Below are positions 11,725-49,994 of a stretch of 49,994 nt of DNA, piece after piece. Below the pieces are notes generated by a model. It saw only the letters and a program-made list of their open reading frames with translations, was not told the origin of the DNA and did no database searches. Position numbers and translations under genes: made by a program. Where the stretch lies: positions 1 through 49,994 of IMG/VR virus record IMGVR_UViG_3300028025_005993. One strand, given 5' to 3'. This DNA comes from a virus. The first letter of the stretch is position 1. Every line of letters starts with the position of its first letter.

Positions 11725-13314
11725 TTATCTGTTTTCAGGTCTGAACCTTAATGGATTAGCTTTAATTGCCGACTTTGGAAAATAAGTCCCTTGTCCTTGT
11801 CTTCTTGCGTTTTTCAATGATCTACCATATTCGTTCATTTCAACTTCAAAATCAGGTTCATATCTTTCGTCATTTGATTGTTTGATCTTATCTCTTAATG
11901 TTGTAAAAAACTCTCTACCTAATCTTTTCATGAATTTAACGTATTCAGCATCTTCATCATCTTTTTTCTTATAGTATTTACTAACGGGTGGTCTTTTTGA
12001 TCTATCTAAATAACTTAAACCTGAAATGTTAGTAATACATTTGTGTCCACCACTATTAGCATCAATAAGATCCCAAGCTGAAATTGTTATTTTATCTAAA
12101 ACCTCACGTTGTTTGTCTGTTAATGAACTAAATGGTTTTGACATAATAGACTCCAACATTTTCATGTAAGATTCCGATCCTTCTGATTTGTTAAATGAAT
12201 TTGGATAAAGAGCCATAAAGTCTTTGAAAGTAAATCCAACAGATCCTGCACCAAAATCTTTACTATTCTCAGATATCCATTTGATAGTTGATAAGGCAAT
12301 TTTTTTCTCTTTTAATTCAGATTCAAATTTCTTTAAAACCTCATCTTTAACTTCACCCAAATTAACACCTTTCAATGCTCTATCTTTTTTAAATGGATTA
12401 CAAGATGCTTGGATCATTCCCATTGGCCAAACAAGAAGTAAAAAGTCAGCATCAGGATTGTTTTTAAATGGCGTATAACGATCATAAGATCCTATATCAA
12501 AAGTTTTCCCGCCAGTGTATTGTGTAATAATCCCATCAATTACTTTTACCTGTGGAGAAATTTTTTGTCTTTCAATGTAAGCTTCTTTATTTTTTTCTAA
12601 TTGTTGTATATCTAAATAACCATTGTTTTTCATCCAATCTTTAATATTCAAAAGAATATTCAAAATTGAAGGTTTTGAGTTTAACACTAATTGTCTTAAA
12701 AACCCTTTTTTGTTTTTGAATGCCAATAACAATTTATTAGCAACAAGTCCCATCATTCTTTTATTACCTTTAACATCTCTTTCTCGATCTATTTTAAACA
12801 AATAATTCATTACATCACTTGGTGTAATATCATACTTTGCAAAGTCCGCAGAGTCAACCATGTTAATCAATTCAATATCTTCTTGAGTGAAAATATCTTT
12901 TGGTGATAATACTTGAGAAATTGTTTCAACGTTGGATCTTGATGGTCTAAAACTTGTTGCGGTTCCACTTTCAACACCTGCTTGTGTGTCATGGTGGTCT
13001 GTGTGAATAATATACATAGGTTTACCGTGAGCAAAGTCTACCAATACTGGCATAATTTCACCTTCACCTTCAGGTTTTTTAACCGCAAATTCTTTATCTC
13101 CATATTGAATTGTTTCAGCATCAACAACTTTGATTCCGTTTTTTTCTAAATATTCTTTCATAGCCAAGGCGGTTGTTACACCATCTAAGTCCATATGGAA
13201 ATATATTTTAGCCATTTGGTATCTTTTTGCCAAATCATTGATATTTCTAATACCACTCTCATTTAATAATTTTGTGGTTTCTTCCTTAATAATTCTTCTA
13301 ATTAAACTTTCCAT
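11725..13314 (-). CDS. tagged DHH-family phosphoesterase
   Basis: 529 aa, starting MESLIRRIIKEETTKLLNES, with two possible protease sites (I-K-E, L-N-E). Residues 37-45 are IYFHMDLDG, the DxD motif; D93 in VLVDFAHG and 105-109 TDHHD complete the metal-binding DHH core of RecJ/NrnA/GdpP-type enzymes. The C-terminal 200 residues include ISAWDLIDANSGGHKC, possibly the DHHA1-type substrate region. Such enzymes hydrolyse single-stranded DNA, nanoRNA or cyclic dinucleotides; the substrate here is unknown. The tag suggests delivery with the genome. Late motif 3 nt upstream; the lysozyme-like gene follows after 2 bp. Confidence 0.8.
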   Translation of the reverse strand: MESLIRRIIKEETTKLLNESGIRNINDLAKRYQMAKIYFHMDLDGVTTALAMKEYLEKNGIKVVDAETIQYGDKEFAVKKPEGEGEIMPVLVDFAHGKPMYIIHTDHHDTQAGVESGTATSFRPSRSNVETISQVLSPKDIFTQEDIELINMVDSADFAKYDITPSDVMNYLFKIDRERDVKGNKRMMGLVANKLLLAFKNKKGFLRQLVLNSKPSILNILLNIKDWMKNNGYLDIQQLEKNKEAYIERQKISPQVKVIDGIITQYTGGKTFDIGSYDRYTPFKNNPDADFLLLVWPMGMIQASCNPFKKDRALKGVNLGEVKDEVLKKFESELKEKKIALSTIKWISENSKDFGAGSVGFTFKDFMALYPNSFNKSEGSESYMKMLESIMSKPFSSLTDKQREVLDKITISAWDLIDANSGGHKCITNISGLSYLDRSKRPPVSKYYKKKDDEDAEYVKFMKRLGREFFTTLRDKIKQSNDERYEPDFEVEMNEYGRSLKNARRQGQGTYFPKSAIKANPLRFRPENR

Positions 13315-47423: not shown

Positions 47424-47507
47424 TTAAAGATTCCAAATTGATTTTCGTTTTTTCTTTGGAAATCTAAACGACCACCAAAGAAGAATCTTTTGAATTGTTC
47501 TTTTCAT
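47424..47507 (-). CDS. tiny basic ORF
   Basis: 27 aa: MKRTIQKILLWWSFRFPKKK, very basic with a WW pair. Its ATG overlaps the previous stop as ATGA, the usual coupling in this genome, which is the main reason to list it. Confidence 0.35.
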   Translation of the reverse strand: MKRTIQKILLWWSFRFPKKKRKSIWNL

Positions 47508-48091
47508 TTTAAAAAATTAATAACCTTTTCTTTAATCCCACTTTGTTTAATACCTTCTCTTGATCTTGGTGTTAAAACAAAATTAGTTAGACCAGGGTTT
47601 TTATCCTCACTATCCAAGAAGTATTTTGATAAAAACTCAAGACTCATATTAAGATCATCAATCGCAACCCAATGTGTGACTTCAGGATGATTCTTTAACC
47701 AATGTCCGATCTCCATACTTCGTTCTAATTCCAACTCAGCACGAAATCTAAACGCATTCCATTCTTTTGGAAAAAGGTCTCTAAATATGTCAGTCACCGC
47801 AATTGGTCGTTTAATAATACCTTGACTAATATAGTAATCACCAAGTTCATCAAGTGTTGCATGTAATCTCCAATCAGAACTTACCACTATTTCACATCCA
47901 GTTTCTTCAATGATCTCATTTAGAACTTTAATTGTCCCTTTATCAAAGTCATCAAAACGATATTGCACCGGAATTTCTCTTGGGGTCATGGATAATTTTC
48001 TTCCTCCCCATTTGTGTTGTTTTTTGTAACGACTACCCCAATTATTAGAGAGACAAATTACACTATCATGATCTAAGAATATAACTTTCAT
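47504..48091 (-). CDS. HAD-like hydrolase
   Basis: 195 aa. FLDHDSVICLS is the HAD motif I (DxD), CEIVVSSDWRLHATLDEL motif II and THWVAIDDLNMSLEF motif IV. The pattern with SSxWR resembles HAD domains of RNA-repair-type proteins (HAD_SAK). The same layout in the next gene points to duplication. Likely a phosphatase, perhaps for RNA or DNA ends. Confidence 0.75.
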   Translation of the reverse strand: MKVIFLDHDSVICLSNNWGSRYKKQHKWGGRKLSMTPREIPVQYRFDDFDKGTIKVLNEIIEETGCEIVVSSDWRLHATLDELGDYYISQGIIKRPIAVTDIFRDLFPKEWNAFRFRAELELERSMEIGHWLKNHPEVTHWVAIDDLNMSLEFLSKYFLDSEDKNPGLTNFVLTPRSREGIKQSGIKEKVINFLK

Positions 48092-48726
48092 TATCTTATT
48101 GTTTGTGTTAATTTTTCGTAATTACTTTTGTTTTCAAATTGTCTTCCAATTCTATACAAGTGGTTTGGGGATAAACCAAACCAAGTGTCACAGTGATGGA
48201 ACTTTGAAAATTGTTCTGTCAACATATCTGAATCATCGTCTAATATTGCGTAATCATCAACTTCAGGGTGTTGATCCAACCACTCTTTAATTTCTTCACC
48301 TCGTAAAGTTCTTCTATTACCAGTGATTCCTACATAAGTTCCTGGTTTAAATCCAAGTTTAACAAATGCGTCTTCCCATCTATAAGGTGTTGATATATGA
48401 TCCTCAATACGAAAGTGATGTTTCCAACTCGAAGAAACACAAATTTTTGTGTTAGTTTTATTACACCATTCGCTCAACCATTTCCACTTTTGATCACAAG
48501 TTTCTTCTCGTAAATCCTTGAATTGATATTCAAAAGTGAAAGACTTTTTAGGTGGTTTATAATCCGCCAAAGAAACTCCTTTTGATTTAATTCTAAACAA
48601 TTTTCTAACCAATCGCTTTAATTCATACCACCATGTGATAGGTTTTCTCCATCGTCTTCTATGTCTTTCTTTATAAAAAACATTAGAGTTCATAACTCCA
48701 TCAATATCCAAGAATATAACTTTCAT
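48091..48726 (-). CDS. HAD-like hydrolase, paralogue
   Basis: 211 aa. FLDIDGVMNS (motif I), KICVSSSWKHHFRIEDH, RGEEIKEWLDQHPEVDDY and AILDDDSDML (motif IV). A basic insertion (HRRRWRKP...RLVRKLFRIKSKG) distinguishes it from the neighbour. Same HAD_SAK-type family; substrate unknown. Confidence 0.8.
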   Translation of the reverse strand: MKVIFLDIDGVMNSNVFYKERHRRRWRKPITWWYELKRLVRKLFRIKSKGVSLADYKPPKKSFTFEYQFKDLREETCDQKWKWLSEWCNKTNTKICVSSSWKHHFRIEDHISTPYRWEDAFVKLGFKPGTYVGITGNRRTLRGEEIKEWLDQHPEVDDYAILDDDSDMLTEQFSKFHHCDTWFGLSPNHLYRIGRQFENKSNYEKLTQTIR

Positions 48727-48827: not shown

Positions 48828-48874
48828 AAAAGAAAGTATAACTATTTCATTATAGATTGTAAGCCTCAGACAAC
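48828..48874. other. conserved array-end element 1
   Basis: AAAGAAAGTATAACTATTTC followed by ATTATAG joins a 19-bp half-repeat (48856-48874, ATTGTAAGCC...CAGACAAC). The same block recurs at 49469-49515. It marks the gene-distal end of the array and has a weak TATAA/TTATA stem. In the direction of the gene's transcript it would be a trailer with a T-rich tail. Confidence 0.5.
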
Positions 48875-49072
48875 TGAGCGGTGTAAAAATTGGCGATGAA
48901 TAGTTGTTACTCCCCTCAAATTGTAAGCCTCAGACAACTTCGAATATGCGTGGCCAATCCTCCAGGTGTGTTGTTACTCCCCTCAAATTGTAAGCCTCAG
49001 ACAACTTCTGAGGTAAATTCAAATTCACTGGCTCTTGTTGTTACTCCCCTCAAATTGTAAGCCTCAGACAAC
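48856..49072. CRISPR. CRISPR-like array 1: 3 full 36-bp repeats, 1 half repeat, 3 spacers
   Basis: Full repeats (starting GTTGTTACTCCCC, ending TCAGACAAC, identical) lie at 48903-48938, 48970-49005 and 49037-49072, with a half repeat at 48856-48874. Spacers are 28, 31 and 31 bp (48875-48902, 48939-48969, 49006-49036), unrelated to each other; the second is over 50% GC in an AT-rich genome. Repeat ends GTTGT/ACAAC are inverted. Length, ends and centre resemble type VI-B (Cas13b) repeats I remember; type II repeats share some features. No cas gene is in the window. The last repeat is part of the gene 48997-49443. Confidence 0.75.
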
Positions 49073-49443
49073 CACTCTTCTGTAAGTTGTTGTATTTCAG
49101 AGTATTTAAGATCAAAACCTTCTTCTAAAAATTGCCAAATGGCATAATAATTTATATAAACATTGTTATTTATTCTATCGTAAACCATTTTATTATTTCC
49201 TTTTTCATACCTAAATAAAGTCCAATTAGGGATTTCTTCACTCTGAACAACATCCAAATCAGTAAAAATATTTAAAAAATCTATAGGAGTTTCAATTCCT
49301 GTCAATTTTTTAAGATTCTCAATACCTCCAACTAATTCAGCAGCAGATTCCCAACCTTCGTATTTAATAATATCAATTAAAGATTGATTTTTTTTATTTT
49401 CAAATAAAAGATTATACTGACTTTCTGTTATTATTATTTTCAT
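48997..49443 (-). CDS. tagged protein whose 3' end runs into CRISPR-like array 1
   Basis: 148 aa as read. MKIIITESQYNLLFEN is the I-T-E-x-Q tag; AAELVGGIENLKKLTG matches the first module of the 871-aa protein. The residues LSEAYNLRGVTT near the C-terminus are encoded by the array's first repeat in the gene's direction, then the ORF reads through the first spacer and stops at a TGA in the next repeat (ending VV). A late motif is 5 nt upstream, so gene and array are probably one transcript. The duplicate at 49773 shares the same ending. The natural C-terminus before array growth is unknown. Confidence 0.65.
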   Translation of the reverse strand: MKIIITESQYNLLFENKKNQSLIDIIKYEGWESAAELVGGIENLKKLTGIETPIDFLNIFTDLDVVQSEEIPNWTLFRYEKGNNKMVYDRINNNVYINYYAIWQFLEEGFDLKYSEIQQLTEEWLSEAYNLRGVTTRASEFEFTSEVV

Positions 49444-49448
49444 ATAAG

Positions 49449-49456
49449 ATAAATAC
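49449..49456 (-). promoter_or_regulatory. putative late motif GTATTTAT
   Basis: Minus-strand GTATTTAT ending 5 nt before the ATG at 49443; it would transcribe gene plus array 1. Confidence 0.5.
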
Positions 49457-49468
49457 TTTGTTAAATAA

Positions 49469-49515
49469 AAAAGAAAGTATAACTATTTCATTATAGATTG
49501 TAAGCCTCAGACAAC
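49469..49515. other. conserved array-end element 2
   Basis: Same block as at 48828-48874, including the half repeat at 49497-49515. It separates array 2 from the late motif of the gene starting at 49443. Confidence 0.5.
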
Positions 49516-49848
49516 ACAAAGAACAATATCATGGCGAGTCCAATTTGTTGTTACTCCCCTCAAATTGTAAGCCTCAGACAACAATACATCGTGAGCGTGT
49601 AAATTTCCAATATGTTGTTACTCCCCTCAAATTGTAAGCCTCAGACAACCGGGATTACTGAGGAAAATTTACAAAAACTGTTGTTACTCCCCTCAAATTG
49701 TAAGCCTCAGACAACTAAATCTCTTGTGCAAAATGACGGGCTTGTGTTGTTACTCCCCTCAAATTGTAAGCCTCAGACAACAAGGGAGTGCTTCGATCTT
49801 TTTCTTGAAGAAGTTGTTACTCCCCTCAAATTGTAAGCCTCAGACAAC
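49497..49848. CRISPR. CRISPR-like array 2: 5 full repeats, 1 half repeat, 5 spacers
   Basis: Identical full repeats lie at 49547-49582, 49614-49649, 49680-49715, 49746-49781 and 49813-49848; half repeat at 49497-49515. Spacers are 31, 31, 30, 30 and 31 bp (49516-49546, 49583-49613, 49650-49679, 49716-49745, 49782-49812), all different from each other and from array 1. The gene-side flank (CACTCTTCTGTAAG...) is identical to that of array 1 for about 68 bp. Confidence 0.8.
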
Positions 49849-49994
49849 CACTCTTCTGTAAGTTGTTGTATTTCAGAGTATTTAAGATCAAAACCTTCTT
49901 CTAAAAATTGCCAAATAACATAATAATATATATAAACATTGTTATTTTTTCTATTGTAAATCATTACATTATTTTTTTTTTCATACCTAAATAA
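49773..49994 (-). CDS. duplicate tagged protein (partial, N-terminus outside window)
   Basis: In-frame from the window edge. Readable part: MIYNRKNNNVYIYYYVIWQF, EEGFDLKYSEIQQLTEEW, then repeat-coded LSEAYNLRGVTT, spacer-coded SSRKRSKHSL and VV before the TGA. The last 40 gene codons are near-identical to the copy at 48997, with synonymous and conservative changes further upstream, which shows both copies are maintained as protein-coding genes. Gene-array units are thus tandemly duplicated. Confidence 0.65.
   Translation of the reverse strand, partial: LFRYEKKNNVMIYNRKNNNVYIYYYVIWQFLEEGFDLKYSEIQQLTEEWLSEAYNLRGVTTSSRKRSKHSLVV

Follow-up and report, generated by a model that had tools for sequence, protein, structure and literature searches.

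Gene-embedded CRISPR-like arrays at the ends of a phage gene family, probably loaded with foreign DNA by a host-type Cas1-Cas2

What are CRISPR-like arrays doing in a phage, and where do their spacers come from? The window, which is the whole stretch of DNA analyzed here, is a single virus record of 49,994 bases. It contains a 36-nt repeat in eight exact copies, two identical 19-nt half repeats, and eight spacers, all different and 28–31 nt long, that are split over two arrays (Table 1, plus-strand numbering). A sequence-only reading had described this set of repeats, half repeats and spacers, and every element was confirmed. A 36-mer that recurs eight times at a spacing of 66–67 nt is not a product of chance, and the combination of identical repeats with unique spacers of similar size is that of a CRISPR array. 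Both arrays belong to the minus strand, on which the repeat reads GTTGTCTGAGGCTTACAATTTGAGGGGAGTAACAAC and the half repeats form the gene-distal ends. The gene-proximal repeat of each array is coding sequence and forms the 3′ end of a gene. The window has two copies of the gene-plus-array unit, arranged head to tail, and the record ends within the second copy of the gene.

Table 1. Positions of the two array-bearing genes and of the array elements in the window.
Feature	Position	Strand	Remark
Array-bearing gene, copy 1 (P0001)	48997..49443	-	148 aa, novel fold; ORF and family of 71 loci
Array-bearing gene, copy 2	49773..49994	-	5′ part lost at contig end; 95% identical over overlapping 182 nt
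Array 1, gene-proximal repeat	49037..49072	-	coding, GTTGTCTGAGGCTTACAATTTGAGGGGAGTAACAAC
Array 1, spacer 1	49006..49036	-	gene-proximal, translated
Array 1, repeat 2	48970..49005	-	contains the gene's stop codon
Array 1, spacer 2	48939..48969	-	
Array 1, repeat 3	48903..48938	-	
Array 1, spacer 3	48875..48902	-	distal, 28 nt
Array 1, terminal half repeat	48856..48874	-	first 19 nt only
Array 2, gene-proximal repeat	49813..49848	-	coding
Array 2, spacer 1	49782..49812	-	translated
Array 2, repeat 2	49746..49781	-	
Array 2, spacer 2	49716..49745	-	
Array 2, repeat 3	49680..49715	-	
Array 2, spacer 3	49650..49679	-	30/30 to siphophage tail gene
Array 2, repeat 4	49614..49649	-	
Array 2, spacer 4	49583..49613	-	
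Array 2, repeat 5	49547..49582	-	
Array 2, spacer 5	49516..49546	-	distal
Array 2, terminal half repeat	49497..49515	-	

The protein encoded by copy 1 ends in ...EEW LSEAYNLRGVTT RASEFEFTSE VV*, which corresponds to repeat, spacer, and a stop in the next repeat. The first repeat is read in the frame TGG|TTG TCT GAG ... GTA ACA AC to give W-LSEAYNLRGVTT, about ten spacer codons follow, and translation terminates at GTT GTC TGA (VV*) within the second repeat. Within the 148-aa protein, the repeat accounts for the final helix and strand, the latter spanning the repeat–spacer junction in the AF2 model (pLDDT 90). P0001 has no match in Pfam, PHROGs or PADLOC, an Rfam search likewise returned no match, and a comparison of the fold found none in the PDB and only uncharacterised phage proteins in the viral library.

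The same arrangement is found in other phages. We fetched 71 IMG/VR loci of the gene family (29–91% identity to P0001), most of which have an array of their own, yielding 45 array instances with 1–5 spacers each and 71 distinct spacers, mostly 27–33 nt. The family arrays share their design and lie at the same codon, and their 36-nt repeats begin with GTTG. Repeats are near-identical inside one array and differ from phage to phage; the commonest, GTTGGATGAGGTCTACAATTTAAGGGGAGTCACACC, occurs in 22 stretches, in arrays behind genes of the family. The terminal repeat often, and indeed usually, ends abruptly after 19–24 nt. In one phage record of 296 kb the gene is present about 18 times, in several cases with an array, and the repeats of that record are confined to the ends of family genes. 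Members without an array also exist. The family was absent from the 396 Bacteroidota genomes searched and belongs to large phages of Bacteroidota bacteria. The closest relatives of the window (91% protein identity) carry a single repeat–spacer unit with a different spacer, and a relative at 69% protein identity carries yet another, so that the spacers are not conserved parts of one locus; such conservation was among the findings that, for the sequence-only reading, would have told against it. Nothing was found in favor of ordinary tandem duplication or an assembly artefact, and we regard this origin as practically negligible: independent contigs from different samples repeat the design with different spacers, and the inserts match outside DNA.

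The outside DNA includes that of other phages. The window spacer at 49650–49679 is identical over 30/30 bases to a conserved siphophage tail gene (L282:5707–5736) and is antisense to the tail mRNA. A codon-degenerate search with this spacer hit seven contigs (one at 30/30, five at 29, one at 28). The tail gene is phrog_6195 and lies near the tape-measure gene of siphophages that have capsid and portal genes of the HK97 type; annotated phages distantly related to them infect Flavobacterium, Polaribacter, Cellulophaga and Bacteroides. One of the eight window spacers thus has a perfect match in another phage group. As this match stems from three IMG/VR spacer scans only, further protospacers would likely turn up beyond them. 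At L282:5312–6245 we also observed two overlapping ORFs ahead of the tape measure gene that resemble frameshifted tail assembly chaperones, with the protospacer in the overlap.

Bacterial chromosomes are the second source. A search of 398 Flavobacteriales genomes, which had no decoy control of its own, identified five matches: L151 spacer 1 is complementary to Flavobacteriales 23S rRNA (30/30), L151 spacer 2 matches acs (acetyl-CoA synthetase gene, 28/29), L125 spacer 4 matches lpd (dihydrolipoyl dehydrogenase-type gene, 28/30), L150 spacer 1 matches leuS (leucyl-tRNA synthetase, 27/29), and L115 spacer 1 has 24/24 identical bases within a response regulator gene. All five lie in conserved genes and the four protein-coding ones keep the protein reading frame, as is expected if the true hosts are related to the genomes of the library but lie outside it. 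A second search, of 400 genomes with the spacers and reversed decoys (without L151 spacer 1, and with two candidates scored per genome), returned nothing, which is weak evidence. Sources were found for 6 of about 65 spacers searched, and four of the six are antisense to RNA and two sense. By eye, no flanking motif is common to the six matched protospacers. No spacer matched its own phage record, including the ten spacers of the 296-kb record, and a comparison with annotated phages gave only one 21-nt chance match. Against 50 related phage records, the spacers found only the arrays themselves and partial matches. L100 spacer 2 also had a 16-nt match in four phages, which we discarded because the spacer carries a stop there in the reading frame of the target. 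Judged by these sequence matches, the family spacers are copied from rival phages and bacterial chromosomes.

Two patterns indicate that the arrays grow from one end. Three arrays (L100, L101 and L206) have four distal spacers in common and in the same order, and L100 differs at the gene-proximal spacer only. In the frame that continues the repeat, the first five codons are free of stops in all 71 spacers, whereas 20.6 spacers with such a stop are expected from random phage DNA (P about 3e-11). Early stops are found in 24/71 and 19/71 spacers in the other two frames and in 56/182 spacers of host VI-B arrays. The 33 spacers that lie outside the present translation are also free of early stops (P about 1e-5), and the simplest reading is that every spacer was once gene-proximal. 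The predicted structure suggests why early stops are absent, since the last strand crosses the junction and would need a few residues of any kind to be completed.

The missing early stops and the strand that runs across the repeat–spacer junction in the AF2 model could also mean that the inserts matter as peptides, in a cassette system that would give the protein varying C termini through the translated gene-proximal spacer. We give this a very slim chance. The inserted foreign DNA occurs in either orientation and in every phase, antisense rRNA included, the insert lengths are not multiples of three, and the lack of early stops is accounted for by the few residues that completing the last strand requires.

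The sequence-only reading had called the repeat VI-B-like. For comparison we assembled 29 distinct VI-B repeats from GTDB species, with Cas13b confirmed next to the F. columnare array, and 17 36-nt II-C repeats. Because the VI-B set was gathered with a pattern partly taken from the window repeat, only relative comparisons are drawn from it: the phage repeats are closer to VI-B repeats than they are to II-C repeats and than synonymous recodings of the same peptide are, and they score below the leave-one-out values among VI-B repeats themselves. Most array-bearing repeats are closer to VI-B than their synonymous recodings at z of about 2.3–3.5, with the window and L013 at 1.1–1.6, and array-less homologues are not closer (z 0.5–1.5). 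Codon identity follows a similar division, being 0.79 in the repeat codons of array-bearing genes versus 0.68 upstream, and 0.55 in the corresponding region of array-less homologues versus 0.58 upstream. Type II-C, a candidate prompted by the terminal half repeat, was rejected, as the phage repeats do not match II-C repeats. The opposite strand of the window contains no copy of a repeat half at up to 3 mismatches.

The likeness to VI-B arrays of Bacteroidota (F. columnare, Chryseobacterium, Riemerella) extends to the 36-nt repeat length, spacers of about 30 nt, the GTTG start, a central TTTRAGGGG and a similar 3′ end. The phage arrays differ from them in having no hairpin, no cas13b and no antisense bias, in a repeat that is the coding sequence of a gene and drifts with it, and in the terminal half repeat. 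The VI-B hairpin is absent in all 21 family repeats tested (mean z +0.7 versus −2.8), and the antisense fraction of the family spacers is 0.45 (0.30–0.61) versus 0.745 (0.65–0.82) in host VI-B arrays. Spacer lengths in the phages (27–33) are more scattered than in host VI-B arrays (mostly 30). We found no Cas13b or full Cas9 in the window or the 296-kb record and no Cas1 in 28 array-bearing phage records, and neither cas genes nor a repeat shared with a host system turned up in the phage records and genomes searched. The exact window repeat is absent from the GTDB genome collection, and the family repeat pattern is absent from the 400 Flavobacteriaceae searched. The earlier claim of CRISPR-like arrays in a phage with no cas genes nearby is borne out, with real spacers, one of them matched perfectly by a sequence in another phage group. 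The claimed resemblance to VI-B, for which a repeat alignment had been suggested, is partly supported, relative to II-C repeats and recodings; membership in type VI-B is not, because the hairpin, the antisense bias and nearby cas genes are all absent. The phage repeat seems to imitate a VI-B repeat at the DNA level rather than to serve as a VI-B crRNA precursor.

These results bear on whether the arrays are functional phage mini-CRISPRs that give crRNAs to host Cas13b against rival phages or host transcripts. Such a role would agree with the 36-nt repeat, its GTTG...ACAAC ends and TTTGAGGGG stretch, and its resemblance to VI-B above synonymous recodings. It would also agree with the sole phage protospacer found being antisense to a conserved tail gene mRNA, with one spacer complementary to 23S rRNA, and with the absence of self-targeting spacers. 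We nevertheless consider it unlikely. Cas13b requires a whole repeat 3′ of the spacer, and the terminal repeat of the phage arrays is truncated; the hairpin is found in none of the 21 family repeats; and the missing antisense bias, together with the absence of the repeat from the GTDB collection and the 400 Flavobacteriaceae, argues further against it.

How, then, were the arrays written? We consider it probable that they are CRISPR-like arrays embedded in phage gene ends and loaded with foreign DNA by a host-type Cas1-Cas2. The repeat unit is the coding 3′ end of the phage gene family, and the sequences show that fragments of about 30 bp from Flavobacteriales chromosomes and unrelated phages were inserted serially at the gene-proximal repeat, each insertion copying that repeat and shifting older spacers downstream. 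Lying on the coding strand directly behind the gene, the array would presumably be co-transcribed with it. The integrase is most likely a host Cas1-Cas2 acting in trans on the VI-B-like phage sequence, as capture of foreign fragments of about 30 bp with copying of the repeat at one end is, to our knowledge, known only from Cas1-Cas2. Acting in trans has been demonstrated in F. columnare, where a II-C Cas1 serves the VI-B array (PMC8092290). Most newly acquired spacers there have no mRNA target, and the unbiased phage spacers fit this mode of acquisition (PMC8092290). Plain Cas1-Cas2 integration does not explain the abrupt end of the terminal repeat at 19–24 nt, and none of the other mechanisms considered accounts for it well. 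A counterpoint to copying by the host is that some self spacers would be expected if any intracellular DNA were taken, and none was found.

Cas1-Cas2 insertion at repeat-like genomic sites is the origin of off-target (spontaneous) CRISPR loci. The phage arrays resemble these in using a non-CRISPR sequence as the repeat and in leader-end insertion, but here the site is conserved across a phage gene family and is under nucleotide-level constraint.

For loading by host Cas1-Cas2, the use of the arrays is a separate question. The arrays may have no guide role and be a sink for spacers or a by-product of host adaptation; this has close to an even chance and agrees with the lack of a hairpin, the truncation of the last repeat and the absent strand bias. 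Nearly as probable is that they yield guide RNAs with which a host effector acts on rivals or host transcripts, which would agree with the lack of self spacers and with a rival tail gene and host rRNA being the targets chosen. Some other use takes only a minor share of the probability.

Phage-borne arrays and repeats have precedents. Huge phages are known to carry cas-less arrays directed against other phages and hosts (PMC7162821), and viral mini-arrays with host-identical repeats have been described (PMC11656645). Like the arrays of huge phages and archaeal viruses, those described here are cas-less and small, with spacers against structural genes of other phages and against host genes (PMC7162821, PMC11656645). 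Mini-arrays are described as reusing host CRISPR repeats, whereas the repeat of the present arrays comes from the 3′ end of a phage gene with several copies, and the searches turned up no host repeat that matches it. Phages have solitary repeat mimics of every type except VI (PMC10651486). The phage arrays share with solitary repeat units and Racr RNA anti-CRISPRs a CRISPR-repeat mimic borne by a phage (PMC10651486). They differ in holding real spacers (1–5 per array, as opposed to a single repeat with none) and in that a structured RNA is not evident.

The constant tie between array and gene could alternatively point to a self-contained guide system in which the family protein binds its own 3′-end RNA and uses the spacers as guides. 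The layout would be TnpB-like, as in TnpB the guide RNA scaffold overlaps the 3′ end of the gene. The array is always fused to this family, and the 296-kb record has none elsewhere. The repeat is under nucleotide-level constraint, one phage has multiplied the gene to about 18 copies, some of which bear arrays, and the fold is unlike any solved structure. We regard such a system as highly improbable, since the most conserved residues of the family protein are hydrophobic or structural with no obvious catalytic set, array-less members exist, and the repeat has no stable RNA structure. A combined form, in which the gene family is the phage's own adaptive memory, loaded by a host-type integrase and read by the gene's own non-Cas protein through guides, is very unlikely.

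The foreign origin of the spacers suggests that the genes of a phage can themselves take up DNA 'memories'. In many phages, spacers have been acquired into genes, at a site different from the known host CRISPR repeats, and their sources trace to rival phages and bacterial chromosomes. It becomes testable whether phages exploit or blunt host adaptation by means of a repeat mimic, and to what extent protein-coding targets can attract Cas1-Cas2. For uncultured huge phages, the spacers are a record of hosts and competitors.

Several further observations concern the window and the loci compared with it. The window protein at 11725–13314 shares about 44% and 39% identity with proteins from metagenomic phages of 634 kb and 642 kb, so the window probably represents part of a huge phage genome; the array-bearing gene family is absent from the records of those 634–642 kb phages. 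Natural spacers of Bacteroidota VI-B arrays (GTDB loci L014–L089) are about 75% antisense to coding sequence under the codon model (interval 0.65–0.82). Long proteins at L159, L163, L165 and L161 contain array-like repeats and spacers in frame, and they give the impression of an array that became fixed as coding sequence. The N-terminal sequence MKIIITESQ, or near variants of it, opens several otherwise different ORFs (window 48997–49443; L013:3500–5120) and is perhaps a shared targeting or packaging signal. At 47504–48726 of the window, two neighboring genes both match HAD_SAK_2, the HAD domain of Swiss Army Knife RNA repair proteins.
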